Part shown: piece after piece, positions 34,990-50,102 of the stretch
How the letters are laid out: every line of letters starts with the position of its first letter
Position numbering within the stretch: the first letter of the stretch is position 1
Assembly: GCF_900105945.1 (NCBI RefSeq)
Contig: NZ_FNSO01000004.1
Span: forward strand, 992,001 to 1,056,000
Source of the DNA: Amycolatopsis tolypomycina
Lineage (GTDB): Bacteria; Actinomycetota; Actinomycetes; Mycobacteriales; Pseudonocardiaceae
Reading direction: 5' to 3'
Length of the DNA stretch: 64,000 nucleotides
Program-made: the position numbers and the translations under genes
The notes under the pieces: generated by a model
Databases searched by the model: none
What the model was told of the DNA's origin: nothing
The model's input: only the letters and a program-made list of their open reading frames with translations

Positions 34990-34995
34990 GGAGTT

Positions 34996-35034
34996 TCCGG
35001 CTGAACCGGGCGGTCGGCGCCCGGTTCAGCCGGA
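34996..35034. terminator. Bidirectional terminator between nrdJ and the WD40-KAP gene
   Basis: Perfect 17-bp arms TCCGGCTGAACCGGGCG and complement around a 5-nt loop, starting 7 bp after the nrdJ stop. The right arm includes the stop codon and last codons of the convergent gene. Confidence 0.85.
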
Positions 35035-38000
35035 GATGTAGTGCGCGTAGGTCTCGAAGCCGTACCGGGCGATCTTCAGCGACCACGCGTGGTAGAGCGC
35101 AGTACAGCGGCCGGCCACCGTCACGTGTTCGCCGATCAGGCTCGCCAGTGCGGTGGCCAGCTTGGCGCAGCCGGGGCCGGCCGCGCGCAACGTTTCGACG
35201 ACGTCCTGGCGGCAGTCGCGGTCGTGGTCGCAGGTGCGGGCCTCCGCCAGGCAGGTGATCAAGGCCGCGAACTCGCCGGGCGAGCGGACGAGCCCGGTCG
35301 CGAGCACCGCGGCGACCTGGTACTCGGCCCGGACGAACTCCGCTCGGCGCGCGTATTCGCCGACGAGCACGAGCCGGTAGATGTTGGTGAGCTTCTTGAC
35401 CGCGCGTGCGCCCGGGAGCGCCATGGCGAGCGACGAGAGCAGCGCGAGCTCGGCCGTGCCGATCCGCAACAGCCGGCCGGGCGGTGGCCCTGGCCGAGGC
35501 GCGGTGAGCGACAACAGGCGGCCCGGAGTGCCCGGCATCGGCCCTTCCGGCGCGGTGACCCGCGTCCCGGGTACCTCTGCCGGCTCGGCGGCCACCAGTG
35601 CCGTGGTTTCCTCCTCGGCGTCCGCCGCGATGTCGTGCAGCAGCCGCCGGAGGAACTGAGGTGCCCGGGCACCCAGCGGGCGCAAGGCGAACACGACGTT
35701 GAACACCTTGTCCAGCAAGCCGAAGTCGAGGATCTGCCGTTCTTCCGGGGTTTCCGACGCCGCGTTCGGGCGCGCGGCCTTGAGGGCGCGGAAGAGCGAC
35801 GGCGGGTCCACCGCGACCACGACGAAGAACATCGGGATCGACATCAGCAGGTTCACCGCCTGCAAGACGTCGGTGACGCGGGCAGGCGGACACCGATCCA
35901 GATCGTCGATGTAGACGACGATGCGCCGGACCACCGGGGTCGTGCCCGACGAGCCGCCGGCTTCGGCCTTCTCGACGGCGTCGGCCAACCGCCGCAGGTC
36001 CTGGTGGACGAACCCGGTGAGCCCGCGGAAGTGCGCGTACCGGTCCGGCTCCGACAGTTCGGTGACCAGTTCGTTCATCCGGAAGACCGGGTCCACCTCC
36101 TTCAGGTGCCGGGTCTCCTCGTCGATCCGGTCCTGGAGGCGTTTCTTCTTCTTGCCGAGTTCCTCGGCGAGCCGGTCGTTCTGCCTGGAGAGCCACGGCA
36201 GCGCGATCTTGAGTTCGCCGGCCACGCCGATCCCGCCGGCCACCAGCGACGCCGCCCATCCGTAGCCATCCGGCAGCCACTGCCTCACCAGGAACCAGGC
36301 GGCGGCCGCCGTCGCGGCGAGTGACAGCGTCCAGGCGGCCGTTCCCCAGCGGCGGCCGCGGAGCTGCTTGCGGATCTTGCGTACCTGTTCGGTGGGCGCC
36401 GGGGTGGCGGGGTCGGCGTGGAACTTGAGGATCCGGCCCACGGCCCGGCTGAGGTACGCCGCGCGCCTGATCGGCCCCGCTGGGGGCAGCCCGGTGCCCG
36501 CGGACTCGGCCGCGTCGAGTTCCCGGGCCAGGCTCTGGTGCAACCGCAGCAGGCCATCCCGGCTTTCGTGGGCGCGCCTGCTCGCGGCCAGGTCGGTATC
36601 GGAAGGGGGACGGCGGGTGCGGAGGTCGGCGTCGTCGTCGGGGTGCTGCCGGAGCGCGGCCAGCAGCTGCTCGATGAGCCCGGTCCAGAGGTGGTCGTCG
36701 CTGTAGTGCCAAGCGTTGAAGCGCACCTGACGTACTTCGCGCACGAAGAACGAGTCGTCGCGGTGGGTGAGATCGTGCACGTAGTTCTTGATCTGCAGGA
36801 TCAGGCTCGACTTCCCGGATCCCCAGTCGCCCAGCAGCGCGACCGACAGTGGCGCACGGGTGTGCTCGGCGGCGATCAGCTCGGCGATCGCGCGGACGTC
36901 GTCGGTGGTGCCGACGGCGTCCTGGGCCGTCGGCGCGTCACTGGTCAGGAAGGGGTGCGGCCGGCGGCCGAGCGCGGTGACACCGCCCTGCTCCGCCTCT
37001 TCGTCGCGGGTGGTGTCGATGGTCCGCACGAGTTCCAGCTCGCCGCGGCTGCCGCCGGCCACGACCAGCTCCCCGTCCGGCATCAGGGCGATCGTCTCGA
37101 CGGCGTCGACGAAGTCGGACTGCACCTGGCCCAGCAGCTCACCGGTCGTCACGCTGCGCCGCTCGACGGCACCGTCGGCGCCGCAGGAGATGATCGACTT
37201 GCCGTCCCGGGACAGCAGCACCTTCCGCACGTCGCGGTGCCCGGTGGGCACCGGATCCAGCAGCCGCCGCCCGGAGGGGAGCTCCCACACGGTGATGGCG
37301 CCGTCGTTCCCGCCGACCACGGCGACGTGCCCGTCGAAGTCGACGGCGACCGAGCGGACCTGCCCACCCTCGACGGCGACCTGCTGGAAGCCCCGCTCGG
37401 TGCGCACGCCCCGGCTGAGGTCCCGGAAGGTGACGTGGCCGGAATCGTCGCCGACGACGGCCGCCTTGCCGTTGCCGGACAAGGCGATCGCCGACACGGC
37501 CTTGGTCGTGACCTCCCACGGAGGGCCGATCGGGTCCCAGGTGGATGCGCTCCACACCTTGATCCGGCCGTCGTTCCCGGCCGAGAAGACGCGTTTGCCG
37601 TCGGGGCTCACGGCGACGGCCCACACCTTCGCCCCGTGCACGAGCGGCAGCTTCCGGTCCACCGGTGCCCGTTGGTACTTGTCCCAGACGATAACCGTTC
37701 CGTCCTCGCTCCCGGAGACGATCAGCGCCCGGTCGCCGGGCCACGTGCTGACGGCCGACACCGGCGCGTCGTGCCCCTCGAAGACGAGCTCCTGCTCACC
37801 CGTTGCGGTCCACACCCGGACGGAGTGGTCCGCGCTCCCGGTCACCACGAAGTCGTACTTCTCGTCGGCGACGATCGCCCGGACCGCCGCCGTGTGCCCC
37901 ACGAACGGCCGCTTCCGACGGCGGTCGCCGTAGCCGTCCCCGGTGAACTGGTCGAGCATCCCCTGGCCGCCGGCCACGATGGTCACCGGTTTGCCGGCGG

Positions 38001-38838
38001 CTTCGGGCACCGCGAGCGCGAAAACTCCGGCGCCGTCCTCGGCGACCAGGATCTCCTCGGTCGGGACGGTGCGGTTGCCGAGGTGCCAGCTCCGGAGCAT
38101 GCCGTCGTTGCTGCCGGAGACGAACCGGCTGGCCCCGGACGCCGCGAGCGCGTGCACGACGTCACCCGGCACCGAACGGATGATGTCGAGCTCTCCCGTC
38201 TCCGGGTTCCAGAGCGCGATCCGGCCGCCGTCGCCGCCCACGAGCGCCTGACCGCCGGGTACGGGGAGCAGGCACCGGAACGTGCCGCCCTGGGCGAGGA
38301 GCAGTTGCGGGCCGAGTTGTTTCGGTGTCCGACCGCTCAGGTCCCACACCTGAGCCACCGCGTCGCGGTCACGCGTCCCGGCGACGACGGCCCGGGCGTC
38401 GTCGGCCAGGAACACGGCGGTGTGGATCTCGATCCCGGTCTCGGCGTCGGCGACGAGGACACCGTCGAAGTCGCAGATCCTGATCCGGCCGTCCTCACCG
38501 CCGCTCAGCAGGTGGTCTCCCGCGATGTGGAGCGCGCGGATCGGACCTGACCCGCGGATTTCGGGCAGTTCGGTGCTGCTCGTCCAGGTGTCCTCCGCGA
38601 ACTGGGACCGGAACACCCGCCCGTCGGCGCCGGCGCTGAAGACGAGCCCGGCGCTCTCCACCATGGACAGCGCCAGCGTGCCGCCGGGGTGGACGAACGT
38701 CGAGTCCCGCCGGCGGAACGGGTCGGTGCCCCACAACCGGATCGTGCCGTCGTCCGCGCCGGTCACGAAAAGCCGACCGTCCGCCGTGGCGGCGAGCGCC
38801 CTGATATCGGTCGAGGTTCTGGTTCCTGGGCTGAGCAT
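35026..38838 (-). CDS. WD40 repeat - KAP-family membrane P-loop NTPase
   Basis: Large protein of 1270 aa that probably couples a repeat sensor to a membrane NTPase. Residues ~10-600 hold about 14 WD40 repeats (VTGADDGTIRLW, VTGSADHSVRVW, VSGSEDGTVIVWD, SAGNDGRIKVW), enough for two seven-bladed propellers. The KAP P-loop domain follows: Walker A LLGDWGSGKSS near 672, two adjacent transmembrane segments near 840-870 and Walker B VVYIDDLDRC near 974. Helices inserted between Walker A and B are typical of KAP NTPases such as Kidins220/PifA. ATG 38838 is chosen (GTG 38844 possible); the open frame beyond it has no such features. It is divergent from the VWA-tubulin-GTPase operon. Confidence 0.85.
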   Translation of the reverse strand: MLSPGTRTSTDIRALAATADGRLFVTGADDGTIRLWGTDPFRRRDSTFVHPGGTLALSMVESAGLVFSAGADGRVFRSQFAEDTWTSSTELPEIRGSGPIRALHIAGDHLLSGGEDGRIRICDFDGVLVADAETGIEIHTAVFLADDARAVVAGTRDRDAVAQVWDLSGRTPKQLGPQLLLAQGGTFRCLLPVPGGQALVGGDGGRIALWNPETGELDIIRSVPGDVVHALAASGASRFVSGSNDGMLRSWHLGNRTVPTEEILVAEDGAGVFALAVPEAAGKPVTIVAGGQGMLDQFTGDGYGDRRRKRPFVGHTAAVRAIVADEKYDFVVTGSADHSVRVWTATGEQELVFEGHDAPVSAVSTWPGDRALIVSGSEDGTVIVWDKYQRAPVDRKLPLVHGAKVWAVAVSPDGKRVFSAGNDGRIKVWSASTWDPIGPPWEVTTKAVSAIALSGNGKAAVVGDDSGHVTFRDLSRGVRTERGFQQVAVEGGQVRSVAVDFDGHVAVVGGNDGAITVWELPSGRRLLDPVPTGHRDVRKVLLSRDGKSIISCGADGAVERRSVTTGELLGQVQSDFVDAVETIALMPDGELVVAGGSRGELELVRTIDTTRDEEAEQGGVTALGRRPHPFLTSDAPTAQDAVGTTDDVRAIAELIAAEHTRAPLSVALLGDWGSGKSSLILQIKNYVHDLTHRDDSFFVREVRQVRFNAWHYSDDHLWTGLIEQLLAALRQHPDDDADLRTRRPPSDTDLAASRRAHESRDGLLRLHQSLARELDAAESAGTGLPPAGPIRRAAYLSRAVGRILKFHADPATPAPTEQVRKIRKQLRGRRWGTAAWTLSLAATAAAAWFLVRQWLPDGYGWAASLVAGGIGVAGELKIALPWLSRQNDRLAEELGKKKKRLQDRIDEETRHLKEVDPVFRMNELVTELSEPDRYAHFRGLTGFVHQDLRRLADAVEKAEAGGSSGTTPVVRRIVVYIDDLDRCPPARVTDVLQAVNLLMSIPMFFVVVAVDPPSLFRALKAARPNAASETPEERQILDFGLLDKVFNVVFALRPLGARAPQFLRRLLHDIAADAEEETTALVAAEPAEVPGTRVTAPEGPMPGTPGRLLSLTAPRPGPPPGRLLRIGTAELALLSSLAMALPGARAVKKLTNIYRLVLVGEYARRAEFVRAEYQVAAVLATGLVRSPGEFAALITCLAEARTCDHDRDCRQDVVETLRAAGPGCAKLATALASLIGEHVTVAGRCTALYHAWSLKIARYGFETYAHYISG

Positions 38839-39018
38839 GGCCACACTATCGGCCGGTCGCCGGGATTTGTTTCGGATGTCCGGCCGTCGTGACATCGGCG
38901 TATCCGGGTGAATCGTGATCTCGGATTGTCGCACTTTCCCGTAACGGCCCGTGCAAGAGCGTCGACTTGGGTGGGTGAACCGGATCAGCCGGATGAACCA
39001 GCCACGGTGGAGGACCCC

Positions 39019-41310
39019 TTGATCGGCCGGGTCGGCATGGAAAAGAAGACGCGGGACGCGGTGACTGTCCTGTTCTGCGGACTGTTGCTCATCCTTTCGG
39101 GTGGTTTTGCCGATGCGGCTTCCCCGGCGAGCCGCCAGGGCTCCGCGGCGGCGCCGGAGGTGGAGGTGAAGCCCGCGCAGATCGTGCTTCTGGTCGACGA
39201 ATCGGGCAGCATCAGCGCCGAGGACATGGTCCGGGAGCAGGACGCGGCCAGCTTGATCGCGCAGGCGGACCTGTCCGCCCGCTCGACGGTCTCGGTCGTC
39301 GGGTTCGCCAGTGACAGCGGCACCAAACCGCCGGTGGACGTCGTTTGCCCGCCGCTGGTGATGGCCGGCCCGGCCGAGCGGGAGCGCATTTCCCAATGTG
39401 TCCGTGATCTGCGCAAACGCACGACGGCCGAAGGTGCGGGAACAGATCACGCGGAAGCGCTCAAACAGGCCATGAGTTATCTTGGCAACGGCTCTTCTGA
39501 CGACGGGCCGAAATTGATCTTCCTGCTCACCGACGGTGTCCTCGACGTCAGTGACAGCCCGCGTTACGGCGTCGGCAAGACCGCGCAACAGCGCAATGAC
39601 GCAGCTCACGAAGTGATTCGTCAGAATCTGGCTGCCGCCAGGGAGCACCACGTCCAGATCTGGCCGCTGGGCTTCGGGAAAGTCGACAAAAACGCGCTGG
39701 ACGAATTCGCGCGGGGCGGGTTCCAGAGTTCCTGCGGGCCGCAGGCGCCGACGCCGCAGGCCACGGTGGTGTCGGGCTCGGCGGATGTCGCCGAGGCGTT
39801 GCTGCGCTCCTTCAGTTCGGGGCGGTGTGCCGGCGTCGGCCCGGTCGCGAAGAACGAACTGGGGTCGGGAGGGAACCTCGAGGTGCCGGTCACGGTCCCG
39901 GCCATTGCCACCGACGGGTCCATCGTGGTCGTCAAACACGATGGCCGGGTCGTCGTCGACTACACGGACCCGGAAGGCAAGCCGGTGCCCAAGTCGGGCC
40001 AGAACGCGAGCGGCAAGTTCTCGGTGAGCGGTGAGAGCGGCGGGGTCGAGGTGCTGCACATCGTCGACCCCGTGCCGGGGGACTGGCGGGTCCGCCTGAC
40101 CTCGCCGGCCGGTGTGCCGCCCCAGGACGTCCTGACCACCGTGACCTGGCAGGGTGCGGCGCAGGCCGCCCTGCTGATCGACCCGCCGTCACCCGCGGTG
40201 GGGCAGCAGGTGACGGTGTCACTGCAGGTGCTGCTGCGCGGCGGCAAGGCGGTCACCGATCCGAAGCTGTTGCAGGGGTTGAGCTTCGGCGTGCAGCTCG
40301 CCGGGGACAAGCTGCCGGCGCGGCCGGTGAACGTCCGCGACGACGGTCAGGACCCGGATGCCGCCGTGGACGGCACCTACACCGGGCGGACGACGATCCC
40401 GGCCGACGTGCCCGGTCAGGCGACCTTCCGCGGCCAGGTCACCGGGCTGGGGATCAGCGCGGCCGACGCGGTCGCCACCGTCCGGACCGCGCCCGGCGTG
40501 CCCCAGGTGCTGGCCACCGCGTCCCTGCCCACACTGGCCACGATGATCGCGCCGGGCGGGTCCACGGCGGCCCAGGTGAGCGTCACCAACAACTCGGGGC
40601 AACGGCGCCGGCTACGCGTCGAGGTGCGTGCCGACAGCGGGGCGACGATCACCGTGCCCGACCCGGTGCACGAGGTGGACCCGGGCACGAGCGTGTTCCC
40701 GTTCCAGCTCGTGGTCGGCCCGCAGAGCCCGATCGGGCTCACCTCCGGCACGGTGCGGATCGTCGACGACGCGAACCCCTCGCAGGTCTTCCACGAGAAG
40801 CCGTTCAAGTTCGCCGTCGGTTACCCGCCACCGTTCCCGTGGGTGCCGATCATCGCCGGAGTGGTCCTGCTCGCCGGGGTGGCCGTCATCGCCCTCGCGG
40901 TCTCGCGCCGGCGGACCCAGGAGGTGAAGGGGCTGACGGTGCAGGCGATCCGGCACGGCCGGCGGACCTACCTGGACACCGAATCCCGGCGCGCGAAAGC
41001 TTTCCGGTTCACCGTCGCGATCGACGCGCAGGTCCCGGTGCTCGACCACGCCCGTCCCGGTGACCCGGCGGCCTACCTGCTCACCCGGTCGCGGGCCGGG
41101 CTCAAGATCAAGACGCCCTACGGGGAGACCCGGTCGATCCAGCTCGGCGAAGAGGTCGAAGTGGACGAAGGCCTGACGCTGGTCGTCACGCCCACGGCGA
41201 GCGGCGCGGACACGCCGACGGCGGTCTACCCGGCCGGTCCGGCGACGGTCGCCGAGGACTACCCGGACCCGGACGCCACGCGGCCGGTCGCGCATGACCC
41301 GCTGCTCTGA
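39019..41310 (+). CDS. Exported von Willebrand factor A domain protein with C-terminal membrane anchor
   Basis: Surface-exposed protein of about 763 aa. TTG 39019 is favoured because GGAGGA ends 4 bp before it; ATG 39037 (MEKKTRDAV) has no ribosome site. A signal peptide (~8-32, VTVLFCGLLLILSGGFADA) is followed by a VWA domain (~50-270) with an intact metal-dependent adhesion site: DESGSIS (~60), the TDHAEAL threonine and LLTDGVLD. Three or four beta-sandwich domains follow, then one transmembrane helix (~607-630, WVPIIAGVVLLAGVAVIAL) and a ~130-residue cytoplasmic tail predicted all-beta. First gene of the six-gene operon. It may bind an extracellular ligand and signal inward. Confidence 0.82.
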   Translation: MIGRVGMEKKTRDAVTVLFCGLLLILSGGFADAASPASRQGSAAAPEVEVKPAQIVLLVDESGSISAEDMVREQDAASLIAQADLSARSTVSVVGFASDSGTKPPVDVVCPPLVMAGPAERERISQCVRDLRKRTTAEGAGTDHAEALKQAMSYLGNGSSDDGPKLIFLLTDGVLDVSDSPRYGVGKTAQQRNDAAHEVIRQNLAAAREHHVQIWPLGFGKVDKNALDEFARGGFQSSCGPQAPTPQATVVSGSADVAEALLRSFSSGRCAGVGPVAKNELGSGGNLEVPVTVPAIATDGSIVVVKHDGRVVVDYTDPEGKPVPKSGQNASGKFSVSGESGGVEVLHIVDPVPGDWRVRLTSPAGVPPQDVLTTVTWQGAAQAALLIDPPSPAVGQQVTVSLQVLLRGGKAVTDPKLLQGLSFGVQLAGDKLPARPVNVRDDGQDPDAAVDGTYTGRTTIPADVPGQATFRGQVTGLGISAADAVATVRTAPGVPQVLATASLPTLATMIAPGGSTAAQVSVTNNSGQRRRLRVEVRADSGATITVPDPVHEVDPGTSVFPFQLVVGPQSPIGLTSGTVRIVDDANPSQVFHEKPFKFAVGYPPPFPWVPIIAGVVLLAGVAVIALAVSRRRTQEVKGLTVQAIRHGRRTYLDTESRRAKAFRFTVAIDAQVPVLDHARPGDPAAYLLTRSRAGLKIKTPYGETRSIQLGEEVEVDEGLTLVVTPTASGADTPTAVYPAGPATVAEDYPDPDATRPVAHDPLL

Positions 41311-41360
41311 CGAACTCGCGCCGCCTCAGGATTTCCGGCCTCGCCGGCAGAAGGAGAGAA

Positions 41361-44300
41361 ATGCAGATCTACCAGCCGATGTTGTTCGTGGGGCTCGGCG
41401 GCACCGGCTGCCGGATCGGCGCCGAGCTCGAACGCAAGCTCCGTGAAGAGCTCTGCGGGCCGGACGGGAACGCGCTGCGGGACCGCATGCCCGGCGAGCA
41501 GATGGCGTCCTACCAGCTTCCGGGGTGTCTGCAATTCGTCTACGCCGACCTCGCCGAAGACGAGTTCGGCCACATCGAAAACCGGGTGGTGCCCGACCGG
41601 ACGCATCTGCCCGCCGCCGAGCGGACCTACACGATGGTCCGTGAACTGGTGCCGCCGTACGACACTTACCCCGAGGTGGCCCGCAGCCTCCGGCTGAGCG
41701 CCGCGCCGGTCGTCGAAGGCTGGCTGCCGCCGCCGCAGAACGAGCCGCGGGTCGGGCCGCTCGCCAAGGGAGCGGGCCAGCTGCCCACGGTCGGCCGGGC
41801 GGCGCTGTACGAGACGTTCCGGCACGGGCTCGCCCCGGCCCGGACGTCCTTGCTCAAGGCGATCGGGCAGATCAGCAACTCGGGCGGGCAGCTGTCGCGG
41901 CTCGGCGGGAAGCTGCGTGAGTCGGTCGACGTCTTCGTCGCGTTCTCGGTGGCGGGCGGCACCGGCGCGGGCCTGTTCTACGACTACCTTCACCTGGTCG
42001 GTGACGTCCTCGCCGCGGAGAAGTACAAGGCGCGGATCTTCCCGCTGGTCCTGATGCCATCGGCGTTCCAGGAAGGCCTCGGCGGCGGGCGGGCCGCCGA
42101 GCTGAACGCCGCCTGCGCACTGCTCGACCTGTTCCGGCTGGTCGACGACCAGAACTCCCAGGTCGCCGGCACGGCGCTGGACCGCCGGGGCATCAACGGC
42201 GCCCTGTCGGTGAGATACCCGGGTGGCAGCGAGATCCGGCTGCGGGCTTCGACCGTCCAGACGGCATTCCTGTTCAGCCTGACCGCCGGTATGCACCGCG
42301 ACGACCTGCACCGGTCGGTGGTCTCCCTGCTGCTGTCCCTGATCGGCACCGATCTGCCCGCCGACGCCGAAGGCGTGAAGTACCTGGACCGCAATTTCCA
42401 GTCGTTCGCCGACAGCTTCATCAACAGCGCGAGCGAGCGTGGCGTGGCCGCTCCGACCGGCGTGGGCAGGCGCGGGGTGTCGACGAGCGCGGTCGCGTCG
42501 ATGACCGTGCCGGTCGAGGATCTCGCCGACATCGTGAGCTCGCGGCTGCTGGCGGAGGCGATCGACGAGATGGCCACCCCCGGCGGCATGGCGGGGGAGA
42601 ACAACCGGGACCTGATCACCCGGATGTTCCAGGACGCCAACATCGACCCGCTGCTGCACCGGGCGCCGCTGCCGATCGCGTCCCCGCCCGCGGTCGACGG
42701 CGGGGAAGCGATCCTGGCGATGCTCAACACCCGCAAGCGCACCATGGAGTCGAGTATTCACGCGCTCGAGCAGACCCTCGCCCAGGAGGTCCCGGAGCTG
42801 GCCGAGCAGTGCGATCCCGCCCGCGCGGCGAGCATGCTGGTCGGTGAACTCGGTGCCTTCCGGCTCGGCCGCGTGGTGCTGGGGGAAGCTGCGCTGACAG
42901 ACCCGTTGAGCCGGATGGGGTTCCTGAAGCTGGTCGAAAGCCGCCGGGGGGAACCGCCGGCGCCCGCGGGCATCACGCTGGGCGGGCCCGAGCCCGAGGT
43001 GCGCAAGACCAAGTGGTGGAAGAAGATCCGGTTCTCGGACCCGATCGTCCGGGCGTCGTTGCAGCGCCAGGAGGAGTGGTTCAAGTGGCGCGCACAGCGG
43101 GCCTGGCACGCGGCGTGGAACGCGCAGGCGCCGCGCTGGGAGCGGAAGCTCCGGTCGGCCGAGCGGGAGATTTCCGCCCTGCTGGAGGGCTTCCGCGAGC
43201 ACGCCCGGACCGAGGACGCCCGGTTCGCCCGCCGGGCGAAGGCGCTCTACGAGCCACGCGTCGGCGTGTCGTACCTGCTGCCGCGCCAGGGGCAGCTGCC
43301 GGCGTTCTACACGGCGGTGGTCCGCCGGCTCGTGTCCGTCTACGCCGACCAGAACCGGCTCCGGCCGACCGCGACGCCCGCCGCCGTGGTGGACGCGATC
43401 ATCGGCCCCCAGGGCTGGAACGCGGTGCTGGCGGAGTTCGCCGACCACGACGTCAAGGAAGGTCCGATCCGGGCCGTGGCCAAGGTGCGCGAGCTGGTCA
43501 AGACCGAGATCATGCGGCTGTTCCGGTACCACGACGACGTCTACCAGCCACTGCTGGCCGGGCTGCACGAGCTGCTGTCCGCCGCGGCCGGGCGGAAGTC
43601 GGGCTCCGTCGACGAGGACGACCTCGCCCAGTTCCGTGAGAAGCTCGCCGGCCTGGTGCCCGGTGGGTTCGCCCCGAGCGGCCGGGGACGGCTGAAGATC
43701 CTGTTCTCGTACCCTTCGCCCGCCGGGAAGCGGGACGCGGGACTCGAAGAGTTCCTGCGCAAGGAAGTGAACCTGCCGCGCGAGGTGGACGCGGTCCCGG
43801 AGTTCCGGCCGATCGACGCCGAGTCGATCGCGGTGGTGCTCTTCCGCTCGTCGATGGGGCTCACCGAGGTACCGGAGGTGCAGAAGGTCCTGGTGCACTG
43901 GGCGGACGCGGTCGCCGAAGGGCGCAAGAACGACTTCCTCCCATGGCGCCAGCGGACCGGGTACCGGTTCGGCTACCTCGCGACCACGGCCGAGGACCGG
44001 GCCCGGATCCTGCACCACGTGCTGTGCGCCGCCTGGAACGGCTTCCTGCAGGTGTCCGGGGACGAGACGTCCCCGGACTCGGTCAACCTGTTCCTCGGCG
44101 ACTCCGAGATCAACATGCGGCTCGACCTGACGTCGTACGCGCGGCTGTCCAGCTGGAGCAGCCTGCTGGCCGAGTACGAGCGCTGGGTGCTGGCCGACTC
44201 CGAGCAGATCCGCCAGGACTTCTGCGACCGCCTGATGGAGACCAAGCCGCTCGGTCTCAACGGCACCGTGACCGAACCCGCGCCGGTGTTCCACATGCTG

Positions 44301-44498
44301 ATGGCGCTGGCTCGTGACGAGGCCGAGAAGACGGCCAAGCTGCTCGCCGAAAACCGCAACGCGGGGCGACGGCGGTTGGAGCTGGTGCACGAGTTCTGGA
44401 CGACGACGTTCGAGTCCGCGCTCACGCTGGACTTCATGGGCGCCGAGGACGCCCCCGAGGACAACCTGGCCCGGCTGTACGAGTGGGTGGCTCGATGA
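41361..44498 (+). CDS. Tubulin/FtsZ-like GTPase (Tubulin_2 type)
   Basis: Cytoplasmic protein of 1045 aa. The N-terminal ~450 residues look like a tubulin-superfamily nucleotide domain: LFVGLGGTGCRIG at 8-20 (first glycine loop) and VAGGTGAGLFYDY near 195-207, the counterpart of the tubulin/FtsZ signature GGTGTG. The remainder (~450-1045) is mainly helical without a known domain. It is much longer than FtsZ (~400 aa) and is not a cell-division gene by context. ATG 41361 follows GGAGAG. It overlaps the next gene by 4 bp. It could form filaments or act as a GTP switch within the system; neither is shown by sequence alone. Confidence 0.75.
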   Translation: MQIYQPMLFVGLGGTGCRIGAELERKLREELCGPDGNALRDRMPGEQMASYQLPGCLQFVYADLAEDEFGHIENRVVPDRTHLPAAERTYTMVRELVPPYDTYPEVARSLRLSAAPVVEGWLPPPQNEPRVGPLAKGAGQLPTVGRAALYETFRHGLAPARTSLLKAIGQISNSGGQLSRLGGKLRESVDVFVAFSVAGGTGAGLFYDYLHLVGDVLAAEKYKARIFPLVLMPSAFQEGLGGGRAAELNAACALLDLFRLVDDQNSQVAGTALDRRGINGALSVRYPGGSEIRLRASTVQTAFLFSLTAGMHRDDLHRSVVSLLLSLIGTDLPADAEGVKYLDRNFQSFADSFINSASERGVAAPTGVGRRGVSTSAVASMTVPVEDLADIVSSRLLAEAIDEMATPGGMAGENNRDLITRMFQDANIDPLLHRAPLPIASPPAVDGGEAILAMLNTRKRTMESSIHALEQTLAQEVPELAEQCDPARAASMLVGELGAFRLGRVVLGEAALTDPLSRMGFLKLVESRRGEPPAPAGITLGGPEPEVRKTKWWKKIRFSDPIVRASLQRQEEWFKWRAQRAWHAAWNAQAPRWERKLRSAEREISALLEGFREHARTEDARFARRAKALYEPRVGVSYLLPRQGQLPAFYTAVVRRLVSVYADQNRLRPTATPAAVVDAIIGPQGWNAVLAEFADHDVKEGPIRAVAKVRELVKTEIMRLFRYHDDVYQPLLAGLHELLSAAAGRKSGSVDEDDLAQFREKLAGLVPGGFAPSGRGRLKILFSYPSPAGKRDAGLEEFLRKEVNLPREVDAVPEFRPIDAESIAVVLFRSSMGLTEVPEVQKVLVHWADAVAEGRKNDFLPWRQRTGYRFGYLATTAEDRARILHHVLCAAWNGFLQVSGDETSPDSVNLFLGDSEINMRLDLTSYARLSSWSSLLAEYERWVLADSEQIRQDFCDRLMETKPLGLNGTVTEPAPVFHMLMALARDEAEKTAKLLAENRNAGRRRLELVHEFWTTTFESALTLDFMGAEDAPEDNLARLYEWVAR

Positions 44499-46684
44499 GC
44501 GGCGATCGCCCGTCGGCGGTCAAGGTCCTGGACATCCGCGACGGCGGAGCCGATCTGTCCTTTCTGGACAAGCTGAACCGGGCCAGCGCCCACCGCCTTG
44601 GCCTGACCGCCCGGGTCGTGGTGGTCGACAACACGCAGTCGCTGCTGGACAACCACCTCCGGTTCCAGCGGCTCGTGTCCTTGCACCACGTACGCGCGGT
44701 GATCTGCGTGGCCGTCGGCCCGATCGACGTCGGCGGCGAGATCTCCCTGCGCCAGTCTTCGGCCTTCCGGGCCGCCGGCGTGACGCTCTGGGTCGGGGAC
44801 GAGTGGGGCAGCACCTGGGCGGGGGGCGGTGCCCGGCCGGAGCCGATCGTCGACGGCACCCCGGCCCTGCCACTGCTCGTTGCCGCGCTGGGCAGCCCGC
44901 AGGTCTTCGACGAGGTGTACGAGACCGTCCGGCGCGTGCCGTACCAGGCCGCGTGCCCCGGGCTCGATGTCGTGCGCCCGCGGACCGGCGGGGCCGACCT
45001 CGACGCCGTGCGCGCCACGCTCCTCGAAGAGCTGGCCCAGCGCAGCCGTTCCGCCGGCCCGGTCGCCGGTGTTCCCGGGCCGGCCCGGGCCAGGTCGCCC
45101 CTCGATCCGGTGCGTGACGTCGTCACGGCGGGGTCCGATCTGGACGTCGGCCGGCGTGCCTTGCGCGACGCGGTGGCGGCCATGGCGGATCAGGCGGCGG
45201 CAACGGCCGCCACGACCGGCCTGGTCCGCGCCGGAGGTGCCGTCGACACGGACCGGCTCCGTCGGGCGGCGGCGGGGCATTTCGGCGCCTTGGACCGGAT
45301 GCTCAACCTGATGGACCGGGAGTCGGCGGGCCAGGACGCGGGCGCGGACCTTCGCCGCCTCGGCGTACCCGCCGCCGACCCGCCCGATCATCCCCGCCTC
45401 GCGGGACTGATGGCCGGCCTCGTCCGCGAGGAACTGGGCCGAGGCCGGTCGCTGCGCGACCTGAGCACGGCGCTGCGCCGGGTTTCGAACCGCAGCATGA
45501 TCCGCGACACCGACGTCGTGCGAGCCGAACTCGCTTCGCTGCGCGAGGTCTTCGAAGCCCGCCCGGCCGCGGCGCCGCGGCGGGTGTGGGCGGTTCCCGC
45601 GGCGATCGGCTCGGCCGTCGCCGCACTGCTCGCCGCCGGGGCGGCGTGGGCGAGCGCCTCCGTCGTGGCCGGCGGGGTCGCCGCGCTGCTCTGGAGCGCA
45701 CTCCTCGCGCTGTTCCTGTTCCACCTGCCCGGCACCGGCTCGGCGACCGGGACGCGGGCCGGACTGCTGGGCGTGGGCACGGTCGCCGTCGCGGCCGCGG
45801 CCTACGGGGGCTGGACGGGTGCCACCGCCGAGGTGGTGCCCGCGCCCGGGGCCGCCGCGGCCGCGGCAGCTGGGCTCGTGGTGCTCACCGCCGTGCTCTG
45901 GTGCCGGGCCGCCACGGCCTGGCTCGTCGCGCTGGGACTCCCGGACCTGGATCGGGCGCTCGGCCGGGCCGAAGCCATCACGACCGAGCGGGTGGCCGAC
46001 CACGTCCGCTCGCTCGAGCACCGCAGGCGGCTTTCGGATGCGGCCCTCCTGCTCGCCTCCGACGGCAACGCGCTGGCCGATTTCTACCTCGCCCGGGCGG
46101 CCGAACGCCGGGCGGGGGGCCAGGGCCGGACCGCGGAAATCCCGGCCGAGCTGCGCGCCGTCCTGCGTGGTGACCTGGTCTCCCTCGTGCTCCGGGCGCT
46201 CGACGAGCATCTGCGGGCCATCGGCTCGGCCGCCGTCCTCGCCGCCGATCCGTCCGGCGTCACCACGAAGGCCGCCCGGGATCTCGCGGCCTACGAAGCG
46301 TTCGTCGCCGGTCACGGCGTCTACGACCGCCCGCCGATGATCGAGGACGACGGCTTTCGCGCCGAGCTGAACCAGGGCTTCTGGCAGAGCTCCGACGCCG
46401 CCAAACGGATCCTCCGCTCCGACGGCCGCGCCGAGCTGACCCAGCTCTGCCAGGTGGGCGACATCCATGCACTGGACGTCTCGTGGGATCACGTCCAGGT
46501 CCTGAGATTCGCACCGGCGCCCGCCCAGCGGGTGCTCCTGGAAGCCGGCTCCGGGGCCGACGTCGTGACGACCAACCTGGACATGGCAGGCGTGCTGCGG
46601 CTGGTGCCGCTGGGTGCCGGCCGGGTCACCCACGAATACCCGGCGACGGCCGACGGGCCTGACGAACAGGAGCACGCCCGGTGA
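44495..46684 (+). CDS. Four-helix membrane protein of the tubulin/GTPase operon
   Basis: Membrane protein of 729 aa, no recognised family. The N-terminal ~180 residues have an alternating beta/alpha pattern (KVLDIRDGGADLSFLDKLNRAS, LTARVVVVDNTQSLL, AVICVAVGPIDVGGE) of a small nucleotide-binding-like or receiver-like fold without a P-loop. A helical region (~190-360) leads to four transmembrane segments at about 366-386, 388-407, 420-440 and 455-480. The C-terminal ~240 residues are cytoplasmic. ATG 44495 gives an ATGA overlap with the tubulin-like gene, so an earlier in-frame ATG (44483) is rejected. Likely a membrane platform for the other components. Confidence 0.7.
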   Translation: MSGDRPSAVKVLDIRDGGADLSFLDKLNRASAHRLGLTARVVVVDNTQSLLDNHLRFQRLVSLHHVRAVICVAVGPIDVGGEISLRQSSAFRAAGVTLWVGDEWGSTWAGGGARPEPIVDGTPALPLLVAALGSPQVFDEVYETVRRVPYQAACPGLDVVRPRTGGADLDAVRATLLEELAQRSRSAGPVAGVPGPARARSPLDPVRDVVTAGSDLDVGRRALRDAVAAMADQAAATAATTGLVRAGGAVDTDRLRRAAAGHFGALDRMLNLMDRESAGQDAGADLRRLGVPAADPPDHPRLAGLMAGLVREELGRGRSLRDLSTALRRVSNRSMIRDTDVVRAELASLREVFEARPAAAPRRVWAVPAAIGSAVAALLAAGAAWASASVVAGGVAALLWSALLALFLFHLPGTGSATGTRAGLLGVGTVAVAAAAYGGWTGATAEVVPAPGAAAAAAAGLVVLTAVLWCRAATAWLVALGLPDLDRALGRAEAITTERVADHVRSLEHRRRLSDAALLLASDGNALADFYLARAAERRAGGQGRTAEIPAELRAVLRGDLVSLVLRALDEHLRAIGSAAVLAADPSGVTTKAARDLAAYEAFVAGHGVYDRPPMIEDDGFRAELNQGFWQSSDAAKRILRSDGRAELTQLCQVGDIHALDVSWDHVQVLRFAPAPAQRVLLEAGSGADVVTTNLDMAGVLRLVPLGAGRVTHEYPATADGPDEQEHAR

Positions 46685-47691
46685 CCGAGACGACCGACCC
46701 GCGGACCCTCGACGGCCATGACATCGACGGCCGGGTGTCGCAGTGGAAGATCACCGGCGCCGAGCCGCTGCCGGCGGCCGGCAGGCTGGCGGCCACCCGG
46801 GTGCACCTGGCCGACGGTGCCACCTACGTGTTGCGTTCGCCCCGGGGCCGGGCCGACGAACAGGCCCGGCGCGCGCTCGACAACGAAATCCGCGTCCTCG
46901 CCCGGCTCACCCTCGCCTTCGGCACGTGGCGGCCGCGGCCGTTCCCGGCGCTGATCGGCTACGACATGGACAGCTCCGAGCCGTGGGCCCTGGTCGGTGA
47001 CTACCGCGGGATCCCGGCGCGCGAAGCGACGGCGGCGCTGCTCGGAACCGGGCTGATGGAGTTCACCGGCGGCTTGTTCGAAGCGCTCGCCCACCTGCCG
47101 CTCGCCGAGGTGGTGCACGGCGGCATCGGGCTGGACACGGTCTACGTGTCCGACGGCCGGATCCAGCTGGTCTCCTTCGACGACGCCGGGCTCATCGGGG
47201 AGCCAGGGCCGCGCCGCTCCGGCCCGATGGCCCCGGACCAGGACATGCTCGCATCGGGGCTGCTGCTCTACGAGGTGTTCACCGGCACACCCGCGTCGTC
47301 GACCCGGCCCGACCTCTCCGACGTGCCCCTGCTCGCCTCGCAGCTGCCGGACCTGTTCGCGGAACGCCGGGCGCGGCCGTCGGCGGTCGCGGTGATGGAA
47401 CGACTCGGGCGCCGGGACTTCCCCAGCGTCGACGGGCCGGACGAACTCGACGCGGGCCGGGCCGCCTTCGAGGAGGCTCGCCGGCGCAAGCTGCCGCCCG
47501 AGCCCCCGACCGTCCGAACCCGGTCGGTGCCCCCGCCGGCGCGGCCGGTCCGAGCGGTCGCGGTGCCGCCGGCGGCGAGCCCCCCGAAGAGCTCGCCGAC
47601 GAGCCGGTCCACGGTCGTCCTGCTGACGATCGGGGTGCTCCTGGTCCTCGCGGCCGTGGCGTATTTCGCTCTGGAGGGAATGCCGTGGTGA
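46681..47691 (+). CDS. Membrane-anchored protein-kinase-like protein, probably a pseudokinase
   Basis: Protein of 336 aa with the outline of a serine/threonine kinase fold but degraded catalysis. A small beta-rich lobe (~15-60) with TYVLRSPRG replaces the usual VAVK lysine strand; no clear glycine-rich loop is visible. The catalytic loop reads VVHGGIGLDTVYV in place of HRDLKPxN, so the catalytic Asp and Asn are missing. The DFG region reads VSFDDAG. A proline-rich linker (~270-305) and one C-terminal transmembrane helix (~312-331) follow. GTGA overlap with both neighbours. It may be a scaffold or ligand sensor, not an enzyme. Confidence 0.65.
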   Translation: MTETTDPRTLDGHDIDGRVSQWKITGAEPLPAAGRLAATRVHLADGATYVLRSPRGRADEQARRALDNEIRVLARLTLAFGTWRPRPFPALIGYDMDSSEPWALVGDYRGIPAREATAALLGTGLMEFTGGLFEALAHLPLAEVVHGGIGLDTVYVSDGRIQLVSFDDAGLIGEPGPRRSGPMAPDQDMLASGLLLYEVFTGTPASSTRPDLSDVPLLASQLPDLFAERRARPSAVAVMERLGRRDFPSVDGPDELDAGRAAFEEARRRKLPPEPPTVRTRSVPPPARPVRAVAVPPAASPPKSSPTSRSTVVLLTIGVLLVLAAVAYFALEGMPW

Positions 47692-48782
47692 CGCCCGCCG
47701 TACGACACGTCACGTGTCCGACCTGCCTGGATTCGTTCGCCTGGCAGGAGACCGAGCTGCTGGAGTACTCGCCAAAGGAGGGCAAGTACAACCCTGTCGT
47801 CTGGCCCGACGGGAAGAATCCGGCCAAGGTCGCCGACGCCCGCAGCCGCTGGTACGTCCGGTGTCCCAACCCGTCCAAGGACGGCGCCAACCACTACCTG
47901 CCGGCGACCTACGTCGACTACGACGATCCGTTGGTGATCGCCCTGGTGGGCCGGCCACGGTCGGGCAAGACGCACCTCGTCGTCGCGATGATCCGTGAGC
48001 TGCTCGGCGGCGCGGCCGCCGTCGCGTCCGGGCTGAGCGCCAAGGCGCTCGACTACCACCAGCACGTCACGTTCAAGCGGACGTTCCTCGACACGTTCGA
48101 GCGCGGGTACCAGCTGCCGGCGACGATGAACGAGTCGGGCAGCTACCTGGCCTGGCTGGTCGTCGAGGTGGGCGCGGTGAAACGGCCGGTGGTCTTCTTC
48201 GACGTGGCGGGGGAGGACTTCCGCAACCCCGGGGAGAACGGGCGCCACACGCGGTTCCTCGTGGCGGCGGGAGCCCTGTTGTTCGTCGAGGACGCTCCGC
48301 ACGTCCTGCCCGCTTTCGCGGAACCGGAGGACCTCACCCTGGACCCGTCGTTGTCGAGCCCGTTCGGGGCGAACGCGACCAACGAGTACGTCCAGGAGGC
48401 GGTCAGCAGGCTGCCGGAGGGTGGGCGGCGGCTGCCGGCCGTGGTGGCGCTGACCAAGTCGGACCGGTTGCGCTACCTCTCGCCCGCCGATCGCTGGCTC
48501 CGGCACGACACCGGCGGCCACGTGCACGCGAAAGACCTGCTCGCCGAGAGCCGGGACGTCTACGCGCTGCTGCACCGGGCCAACGCGAGCTCGATCACCC
48601 GGCTGTACCACGAATTCGAAAGGTGCACGATGCACTTCGTCTCGGCCACGGGGGGCGCGGTCGGCAAGGACGGGCGCTACCGGTCCGGGACCCGCCCGGC
48701 CCGCGTGCTCGTCCCGTTTCTGTCCCTCCTCGCGATGGCCGGCGTCCTGACCGGCGCCGACGTCGAGGGAGCGGGCCGATGA
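47688..48782 (+). CDS. Zinc-finger P-loop GTPase (TRAFAC-like, double-GTPase type)
   Basis: Cytoplasmic NTPase of 364 aa. An N-terminal zinc-ribbon-like part has CPTC at ~10-13 and a later RCPNPS. The G domain has G1 LVGRPRSGKTHL near 84-95, G3 VVFFDVAGEDF near 164-174 and G4 ALTKSD near 249-254, the order and spacing of TRAFAC GTPases. The long insertion between G1 and G3 resembles the double-GTPase proteins described computationally with GTPase-associated protein 1. GTG 47688 gives the 4-bp overlap seen throughout this operon and lies downstream of GGAGGG. It is probably the core switch of the system together with the next gene. Confidence 0.72.
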   Translation: MTPAVRHVTCPTCLDSFAWQETELLEYSPKEGKYNPVVWPDGKNPAKVADARSRWYVRCPNPSKDGANHYLPATYVDYDDPLVIALVGRPRSGKTHLVVAMIRELLGGAAAVASGLSAKALDYHQHVTFKRTFLDTFERGYQLPATMNESGSYLAWLVVEVGAVKRPVVFFDVAGEDFRNPGENGRHTRFLVAAGALLFVEDAPHVLPAFAEPEDLTLDPSLSSPFGANATNEYVQEAVSRLPEGGRRLPAVVALTKSDRLRYLSPADRWLRHDTGGHVHAKDLLAESRDVYALLHRANASSITRLYHEFERCTMHFVSATGGAVGKDGRYRSGTRPARVLVPFLSLLAMAGVLTGADVEGAGR

Positions 48783-50092
48783 CCCATGCCGGGCCCGTTG
48801 GGCACATCCTGTTCGGCATGATCCCCCGAGGGGGGATCGGGGTCGTCGACCACTCACCGGAGATCCCCGCGGTCCGGGCCGAGGAGTGGGACGGCCGCCT
48901 CAACAAGCACAACCGGCTGACTCCCACCTTCGGGCAGAACGGACCGCAGCTGCCCGATCGAGCGTTCTCCTACCTGGAGTTCCGGGACGGCACGGCCGCG
49001 CTGCTGGCCAGGTTCGGGGGTGTCACCAGCGGGCGGAACAACTCCCACGCCCTGGTCGGCCCGGCCGCCACCCTGCGGCCGCACGCGTTGTTCCTCTCCG
49101 AGTGGGACGGCTGGCTCGACGGCGCGCGGCCGATGCCGCTCCGTCCGCCGCACGCTGAGGAATGGCGCCACCTCAAGGCACCGTGGCTGAACCGCGCTGA
49201 GGCCGCCGCCCACGCCGACCCGGCGCGGCTCACCGCGCTTGTCCGATCGATGTTGAGCCGTCAGGACGTCTACCTGACCCTGTCCGGATTTCCCGAACCG
49301 TTGCTCCTGCTGACCGCCGCGCACGAGGTGCTCGACCCGGCCTTGTCCACTGTGCACGATCCGTTCGACTGGACGTACTCCACGTACGAGGACTCGGACA
49401 CGCGACCGGAGGCGTCCCCGCAGGTCGAGGGGGCACCGCGGTTCCTGTGCGTGGACGAGCTGCCGACTTCGGGCGAGACCGGCCGGGAGCGTCTCGGCGG
49501 ATCGGATGCGCCGCCGCACGACAGCTACACCGACACGGCGTCCGCGCTCGTCGAGCACTACCTGAAGGACCCGCGGAGGCACCGCCAGGCGCTGGACACC
49601 CTGCTCGCCCGTGCGCACGACCGGAGCCGGCGGCTCGCGGTGATCATGCAGCACTTCCCGGAACGCCGCCCCACCCTCGGCGGCCGGAAATCGTTCGCCG
49701 ACGGCGGCAGGCACGCCACGGTTCCCGTGGGCTCTCCGGTCGAGCTGCCGCCGAAGCCGTCACCGAAACCGTCGCCGAAACCGCGGTCGGGCGAGGAGGC
49801 CGTGGTGGGCGAACGGCAGCTGCCGCAGCCGTCCGGTCCGCGGCCGATGGCGGAGCCGGCGCGACCCGAACGGGTGCCTGCGCTGCTCGCGCAGCTCGGC
49901 GAAGCCGACCTGCGCGACGACGTCCGGCGCGAGCTGGTGACCCGGCTTGCCGAGGCGTGGCACGCGCGCGGCGAGCACTCCGACCGTGCCCGGCTGGATG
50001 ACGTCATCATCGGCCTGCGGCGGCAGAATGCCGTCTTGTTCGCCATCCTGCTGCTCAGCACGATCGCCGTCGTGGCGGCGTTCCTCCGGTGA
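48779..50092 (+). CDS. GTPase-associated protein 1-like protein with C-terminal membrane helix
   Basis: Protein of 437 aa. The N-terminal ~250 residues resemble the N-terminal domain of GTPase-associated protein 1: a start with GHILFGMIPRGGIGVVDHSPEIP, then FSYLEFRDGTAALLARF and SGRNNSHALVGPA, then W-rich segments (EWDGWLDG, EEWRHLKAPWL). This comparison is from memory and needs a profile search. A proline/lysine linker with PKPSPKPSPKP (~322-340) is followed by a helical segment and a terminal transmembrane helix (~418-436, NAVLFAILLLSTIAVVAAFL). ATG 48779 overlaps the GTPase stop (ATGA). It is the last gene of the operon. It would place the GTPase at the membrane. Confidence 0.6.
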   Translation: MTHAGPVGHILFGMIPRGGIGVVDHSPEIPAVRAEEWDGRLNKHNRLTPTFGQNGPQLPDRAFSYLEFRDGTAALLARFGGVTSGRNNSHALVGPAATLRPHALFLSEWDGWLDGARPMPLRPPHAEEWRHLKAPWLNRAEAAAHADPARLTALVRSMLSRQDVYLTLSGFPEPLLLLTAAHEVLDPALSTVHDPFDWTYSTYEDSDTRPEASPQVEGAPRFLCVDELPTSGETGRERLGGSDAPPHDSYTDTASALVEHYLKDPRRHRQALDTLLARAHDRSRRLAVIMQHFPERRPTLGGRKSFADGGRHATVPVGSPVELPPKPSPKPSPKPRSGEEAVVGERQLPQPSGPRPMAEPARPERVPALLAQLGEADLRDDVRRELVTRLAEAWHARGEHSDRARLDDVIIGLRRQNAVLFAILLLSTIAVVAAFLR

Positions 50093-50102
50093 GGCGAGGC
50101 CG

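Follow-up and report, generated by a model that had tools for sequence, protein, structure and literature searches.

A conserved tubulin- and GTPase-containing gene set with differing effector-like neighbours: a candidate membrane-anchored conflict system in Amycolatopsis tolypomycina

Genes and domains of the nrdJ–TetR interval

We analysed a stretch of 64,000 nucleotides (the window) from the genome of Amycolatopsis tolypomycina, which is assembled to 10.36 Mb in 4 contigs. Between nrdJ and a TetR gene the window holds a block of seven genes, all of which had been described at that place in an initial annotation made from the sequence alone: one reverse gene encoding a WD40–KAP protein and six forward genes that encode, in order, a VWA protein with a transmembrane (TM) segment, a Tubulin_2 protein, a protein with four TM helices (the 4TM protein), a pseudokinase with a TM segment, a zinc-ribbon GTPase and a GAP-like protein with a TM segment (Table 1). 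Comparison with related genomes showed that the predicted VWA, tubulin, 4TM, pseudokinase and zinc-ribbon DO-GTPase proteins form a conserved chassis, usually followed by a GAP1-N2-like protein, and that differing genes of putative effector type stand beside it, namely WD40–KAP here and, in other genomes, TIR, a lipoprotein–CHAT pair or SLATT linked to GAP. Each of the last four forward genes overlaps the preceding stop codon by 4 bp, exactly as annotated, which suggests translational coupling, and by hydropathy four of the six forward genes encode membrane proteins. A promoter and terminator scan gave no sigma-70-type promoter match in the divergent intergenic region, and fewer terminator-like sites than in shuffled sequences, in GC-rich DNA where such a scan carries little information. 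The start of the WD40–KAP gene was chosen by way of overlap with the VWA gene.

Table 1. Features of the nrdJ–TetR interval (window coordinates).
Feature	Coordinates	Strand	Size	Notes and basis
WD40–KAP P-loop NTPase; accessory, candidate effector	35026..38895	-	1289 aa	Pfam
KAP part of WD40–KAP	about 35026–36948			Walker A GDWGSGKS
WD40 part of WD40–KAP	about 36949–38895			
Divergent intergenic region, WD40–KAP vs VWA genes	38896..39036			
VWA membrane protein	39037..41310	+	757 aa	Pfam VWA_2, MIDAS, hydropathy
Tubulin_2/FtsZl1-family protein	41361..44498	+	1045 aa	long C-terminal part; PF13809
4TM protein	44495..46684	+	729 aa	
Tail-anchored pseudokinase	46681..47691	+	336 aa	TM residues 312–330
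Zinc-ribbon TRAFAC GTPase, DO-GTPase type	47688..48782	+	364 aa	DO-GTPase2, motifs
GAP1-N2-like tail-anchored protein	48779..50092	+	437 aa	TM residues 418–436

The VWA protein has, by hydropathy, a signal peptide, the VWA domain, one TM segment at residues 605–623 and a C-terminal tail of about 134 aa. Because a signal peptide is combined with a single C-terminal TM segment, the VWA domain is predicted to be, and probably is, extracellular, with the tail in the cytoplasm. Its metal-ion-dependent adhesion site (MIDAS) is intact, the DxSxS motif, the Thr and the Asp being present in all 34 alignment rows. The tubulin matches PF13809 with E 8.9e-60 over residues 8–402, is the sole Tubulin_2 match of its own genome and belongs to an alignment in which the loops GxGGTG and AGGTGxG are kept in 34/34 rows. 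Nine loci of one clade (L082–L085, L088 and L249–L252) have about 2 kb extra between the VWA and tubulin genes, with one or two unassigned open reading frames where this stretch was read.

The 4TM protein has an alpha/beta N-terminal part, four TM helices at about residues 362–480, a long helix and a C-terminal part; in the AlphaFold 2 model about 360 residues lie ahead of the membrane part and about 250 behind it. The mean predicted local distance difference test score (pLDDT) of the model is 72 and its predicted template modelling score 0.53. The window protein has no Pfam family, and a Foldseek search gave 38 matches, none of them to a PDB entry at E<=0.001, with a model in which much of the N-terminal part is of low confidence (under pLDDT 60). 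A phylum-wide search with the 4TM alignment returned 2/296, the own genome and one partial match (E 2e-4) that was not accepted; since it missed genome G407, which bears the core, the search is insensitive and was not used for distribution.

The pseudokinase has a kinase fold, but the catalytic-loop Asp is present in just 1 of 34 rows and absent from the window protein. DO-GTPase2 matches all 13 GTPase members at E<=0.1, the window member falling below the curated cut-off, and Walker A Gly93/Lys94, Asp172/Gly175/Glu176 (Glu176 being the Walker-B Glu) and Lys257/Asp259 are invariant in 34/34 rows; the Thr of the TxKD motif is found in 29/34. Cys10, Cys13 and Cys59 are invariant in 34 rows and His69 in 13, which are signs of one zinc ribbon only. 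The tubulin, DO-GTPase and kinase folds of the initial annotation are borne out.

In nine loci the pseudokinase and the GTPase form a single reading frame: L089–L095, within the family, and L145 and L147, from another family. A polar linker replaces the TM anchor of the pseudokinase in these loci. The two fused groups are widely separated in the tubulin tree, which makes two or more origins of the fusion probable. The fusion points to the GTPase as the physical partner of the pseudokinase. The fused loci L089–L095 have a lipoprotein–CHAT pair and no detected GAP gene; L145 and L147 keep the GAP-like gene.

The last forward gene had been annotated as GAP1-like. This stands as remote GAP1-N2 homology: in a one-template profile–profile comparison the GAP-like alignment matched GAP1-N2 with probability 93.7 and E 1.8e-7 over 193 columns, collinear from residue 1, and five unrelated controls stayed below 1%. 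What does not stand is a direct family assignment, since PF20013 matched none of the 13 GAP alignment members, the window protein included, nor anything in the own genome; it did match in two of nine class genomes with the core, both times on another contig. The GAP1-N2 alignment ends at column 219 of 680, and no Pfam match to GAP1-M or GAP1-C was found. The GAP profile comprised 24 rows, L076, L080 and L081 being excluded as their GAP lies in two frames, and 19 of 24 GAP1-N2 loci were kept for comparison (L135, L136, L137, L140 and L144 missed the N-terminal motif filter). SLATT_1 is found in 8 of the 13 GAP alignment members and is absent from the window's GAP-like protein. Across 41 genomes, 11 carry SLATT_1 at the GAP place, which accounts for 11 of the 44 SLATT_1 matches there. 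In L076, L080, L081 and L247 the GAP matches are split over two overlapping frames, so that GAP and SLATT may be separate genes in these loci. An EF-hand protein (EF-hand_1 E 2e-24) is encoded directly 3' of the GAP-like gene on the same strand at L083:1679-2335.

Linkage and distribution of the core

Neither of the outcomes that the initial annotation had named as refuting its reading, missing linkage in relatives or unsupported tubulin and GTPase folds, was observed. Of 49 related loci, 47 keep the core VWA–Tubulin_2–4TM–pseudokinase–GTPase in one gene order, and the other two are cut by contig ends. All six genes stand in identical order in all 13 complete named loci, and the first five in all 20 further loci of the family, 13 of which also have a GAP profile match. 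In the class, Tubulin_2 occurs in 13 of 246 genomes, own included; nine of the 12 others have the same locus type, of which seven are complete for the five genes and two are truncated at contig ends. In seven of these nine a GAP-like gene follows the core, assigned by its position and, for the set as a whole, by profile. Nonomuraea L163 has the five core genes, and six more loci of the genus to which the window belongs have all six. The Tubulin_2 loci L154–L156 gave no 4TM or pseudokinase match at E 0.01. From the linkage in 47/49 loci and from these loci without the two proteins, we conclude that the 4TM/pseudokinase type is a distinct, coherent system. Left out of the locus set were L014 (a 3.3-kb contig), L246 (which equals locus L002) and the fragments G170 and G230; neighbours are incompletely known for L149 and L152 (contig ends) and L163 (no extended flanks).

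Several parts of the system evolve fast. Mean identity between the window and the five nearest loci is 80% for the tubulin, 70% for the GTPase and 62% for the VWA protein, and falls to 47% for both the 4TM protein and the pseudokinase and to 38% for the GAP-like protein.

The distribution is patchy. The tubulin was found in 9 of 80 same-genus genomes, with no match in the other 71; the eight other same-genus tubulins are 45–83% identical to that of the window, and the nine fall into three separate clades. Matches within the family come from 35 of 297 genomes, two of them represented by fragments only, and are spread over 8 of 46 genera. The gene nrdJ is present in 80/80 same-genus genomes. Each of the 13 same-genus loci compared matches the window in nrdJ and in the right flank but has other DNA in place of the block. 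This DNA measures 1.8–4.8 kb, and the alignment is taken up again on the right at 50.1–50.2 kb in nine loci and at 50.7–51.6 kb in four. The nrdJ–TetR interval (34990-50102) is a variable slot. Eight proteins from its gaps were scanned: three have no Pfam family, and the others are a FAD hydroxylase, an MFS transporter, a DUF2293 protein, a TIR-like protein below cut-off (L107) and an NB-ARC protein (L108).

Carriage by phages or plasmids and transfer to Rhodococcus were rejected. No match was found in phages, and three pattern matches in viral_contigs include no relative; the sole 'plasmid' match is an 11.85-Mb Nonomuraea record that is evidently a chromosome; and L005, recorded as 'Rhodococcus rhodnii' NRRL B-16535, groups with Kibdelosporangium (L003, G147) and is probably a mislabelled strain or record, not a transfer to Rhodococcus. 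The tubulin tree was made by a quick method with Shimodaira–Hasegawa-like approximate likelihood ratio support only; its rooting is open, and long branches call for caution over L145 and over the joining of the L083 group with the L090 group.

The neighbouring nrdJ (31102-34989) has a 355-residue insertion from Cys160, ending in HN before a Cys, which is an intein with a LAGLIDADG-like motif. Most listed same-genus relatives lack it, and further insertions are seen in relatives around residues 723 and 910.

Effector-like genes beside the core

The WD40–KAP protein matches Pfam KAP_NTPase with E 3.5e-23 and WD40 with E 3.6e-47. Its profile matches to PifA (E 1e-14) and QatA (E 5e-16, 58.4 bits, below the NCBIfam equivalog cut-off of 600 bits) are weak. 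The initial annotation had counted it as a fixed part of the system and a sensor, and here it has to be corrected: the gene is full-length in 3 of 50 loci (window, L002 and L006; L152 left out) and survives as a remnant in L004, the effector-like genes of other relatives are different ones, and WD40–KAP is not part of the core. It might then be an independent passenger that happens to occupy the variable slot beside an otherwise unchanged six-gene core. Some match to the protein is found in 49 of 53 genomes, mostly elsewhere in the genome, which like the low count in the loci would suit a passenger. Set against this, the divergent place is kept in the window, L002 and L006, and by the L004 remnant, across two genera with differing neighbours, and in the sister loci L003 and L005 a lipoprotein–CHAT pair replaces it, such that the six-locus clade of the window has one or the other and never both. 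We regard the passenger as unlikely, if the most credible of the alternatives considered here.

Two further kinds of gene recur beside the core. A TIR gene stands directly after GAP/SLATT in 12 of 50 loci, with a possible start −4 to +3 bp from the GAP/SLATT stop in the 11 loci measured. A two-gene module for a lipoprotein-like protein and a CHAT peptidase (LP–CHAT) was found in 11 of 50 loci in three arrangements: it lies downstream in L003 and L005, upstream and co-directional in L089–L095, and upstream in divergent orientation in L251 and L252. The lipoprotein-like protein, with a lipobox seen by eye, has 937 aa in L095 and 1076 aa in L005, and the L005 protein is homologous to its counterparts in L089, L093, L095, L251 and L252 (E 3e-152 or better). 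CHAT was confirmed by Pfam in L095 and L236 and, among the matches listed, also beside L090, L091 and L093. As a control, the TIR, LP and CHAT seeds were run on 13 nrdJ loci, each about 20 kb long, and gave no match. Left uncounted, among the matches listed, were two of TIR_2, one directly after CHAT in L005 (G093:C30:71296) and one about 4 kb from L078, and two of CHAT, one next to L087 on the opposite strand (G296:C23:145216) and one some 5 kb away from L078.

Two single loci are recorded for themselves. At L011:21248-22147 a gene for a MoxR-like AAA ATPase (AAA_5 E 3e-12; bpMoxR E 1.6e-4, below cut-off) follows TIR directly, possibly a meeting of MoxR–VWA and GTPase-centric systems. One Lentzea locus has, upstream of the core at L013:214-4323, a gene for a TIR–STAND–WD40 protein of 1369 aa.

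SLATT, TIR and KAP proteins act within the producing cell in the systems described for them. This speaks against a surface-contact or kin-recognition system that would be directed at other bacteria, not at phages, and triggered through the VWA ectodomain, as does the lack of any Pfam toxin family among the proteins scanned. The predicted extracellular VWA domain with its intact MIDAS, and the lipoprotein-like partner in 11 loci, are what such a system might have, and we consider it the least probable of the explanations.

Relation to known systems and proposed function

Kaur et al. (2020; PMC7159879) predicted GTPase-centric and tubulin conflict systems, including a GAP1-N2 tubulin theme. The window locus resembles this theme in its DO-GTPase with the Walker-B Glu, its Tubulin_2 protein with a C-terminal extension, its membrane VWA protein with signal peptide and TM segment and its remote GAP1-N2 homologue, and relatives of the locus have SLATT, described as a pore-forming effector (PMC7159879), joined to GAP. 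It differs in that PF20013 does not see the GAP protein, GAP1-C is missing, and a 4TM protein and a pseudokinase are present instead. Two N-terminal zinc ribbons are among the features given as criteria for the GTPase (PMC7159879). HRDC and FN3, which mark the FNIII–HRDC partner of the theme, gave no match in the window proteins (for WD40–KAP, among the best 25 of 40 families) or the 4TM set. Since PF20013 is blind to the GAP protein, GAP1-C was not found and the HRDC partner was not seen, we treat the locus as a variant and not a member of the GAP1-N2 systems. Locus L154, in genome G529 of the same order, is comparable in that about 13 kb hold Tubulin_2, a related GTPase and GAP1-N2, but its tubulin is missed at E 0.01 by the full-length profile of the window family, and it has no 4TM or pseudokinase match.

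Makarova and Koonin (2010; PMC2875224) described FtsZl1 operons and proposed membrane remodelling for them. The present locus is similar in having FtsZl1/Tubulin_2, VWA with intact MIDAS, a GTPase with TxKD, a protein-kinase-like protein and TM proteins, but the seven window proteins include no OmpA match and the kinase-like protein of the window lacks catalytic residues. A machine for membrane remodelling, or for vesicles or differentiation, in which tubulin, GTPase and VWA shape the membrane and no defence role exists, therefore has to be weighed; the shared families and the four predicted membrane proteins favour it. The missing tubulin in 71 of 80 same-genus genomes, the variable slot, the fast evolution of several parts, and TIR, CHAT and SLATT neighbours, which are odd for a housekeeping shape machine, do not, and we think it rather improbable.

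PifA is a phage-excluding KAP protein. Like PifA, QatA and Tmn, the WD40–KAP protein has a KAP P-loop domain with two weakly hydrophobic stretches inside; unlike them it has WD40 repeats in front. Tmn belongs to the KAP family (PMC11846954). Within open-licence PMC text, a search on the gene combination gave nothing closer than the 2010 and 2020 papers: a 2023 paper on haloarchaeal hyphae concerns MoxR–VWA, a different gene set (PMC10067837), and a PSP paper mentions a DO-GTPase predicted in membrane stress (PMC11237479). The literature searched agrees with the initial annotation in offering no experimental characterisation of this exact set, although predictions of the general class date back to 2010 and 2020. 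The main text of PMC7159879 does not contain the terms CHAT and pseudokinase, and the pseudokinase–GTPase fusion and the LP–CHAT module were not found there; for other system types, the paper does describe TIR and RelA, peptidases of the caspase superfamily and kinase domains that are inactive.

The reading best supported by the conserved linkage and the supported folds is the one that the initial annotation had offered, a membrane-associated conflict system. A fixed sensor–switch chassis, patchiness, a variable slot, fast-changing parts and exchangeable effector types agree with the criteria for such systems set out by Kaur et al. (2020; PMC7159879). Judged from these comparisons, we hold with moderate confidence that the locus encodes a conflict system that is accessory, anchored in the membrane and most probably directed against phages.

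Several observations weigh against this. Nearly half of the loci (24 of 50) show no recognisable effector next to the core, and the background is high, with at least 523 TIR_2 matches in 41 genomes and CHAT in 41/41. On the tree, in which the CHAT of L251/L252 is not included and the L004 remnant is labelled KAP, the effector labels need two changes each for TIR, LP–CHAT and KAP, and because so few changes are needed the independent events are few and the evidence limited. Three loci and one remnant tie WD40–KAP to the chassis. PADLOC matched two of nine neighbour or slot proteins, both weakly (the L007 TIR, E 5e-7, and the L013 TIR–STAND, E 2e-6). A RelA/SpoT gene that adjoins GAP in Lentzea L009, L012 and L013 was rejected as an effector and is taken as a flanking gene, because in L007, L008 and L010 it is found past the TIR gene, at a distance of about 5 kb. 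Of the 13 genomes without the block in this slot, 4 (G298, G314, G331 and G340) carry the system elsewhere as a divergent copy, so the slot taken alone overstates its absence. Kaur et al. (PMC7159879) had, moreover, already described effectors being shared in this way.

How a conflict system of this composition might work can be sketched tentatively. The VWA ectodomain, with its metal-binding motif intact, would feel an envelope perturbation or a ligand, and the signal would cross through the TM segment to a cytoplasmic assembly of tubulin and 4TM protein. A receptor role for VWA agrees with the remark of a reviewer of Makarova and Koonin (2010; PMC2875224) that the VWA proteins he checked have signal peptides. 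The pseudokinase may act as a scaffold by which the DO-GTPase is kept membrane-bound, a threshold may be set by the GTPase/GAP1 pair, and GTP-dependent assembly of the tubulin could spread the signal. The output here would be the WD40–KAP protein as a relative of membrane NTPases of the PifA/QatA/Tmn type, whose activation might damage the membrane or halt growth of the infected hypha. A more far-reaching scheme, an outside-in immune receptor that leads from a metal-binding VWA ectodomain through a tubulin polymer and a pseudokinase-tethered GTPase to interchangeable suicide effectors, is speculative, and we would not call it likely.

The analysis delimits a coherent system around a branch of the FtsZ/tubulin proteins that has been without a settled function since 2010. 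Its effector-like neighbours are exchanged between relatives, which points to a purpose, the killing or arrest of the infected cell. If this is true, bacteria would employ a tubulin homologue in immunity and not in division or DNA segregation; and if the outside-in receptor were also true, a cytoskeletal GTPase would be the amplifier of an immune signalosome with a KAP NTPase, a SLATT pore, TIR or a CHAT protease as its effectors.

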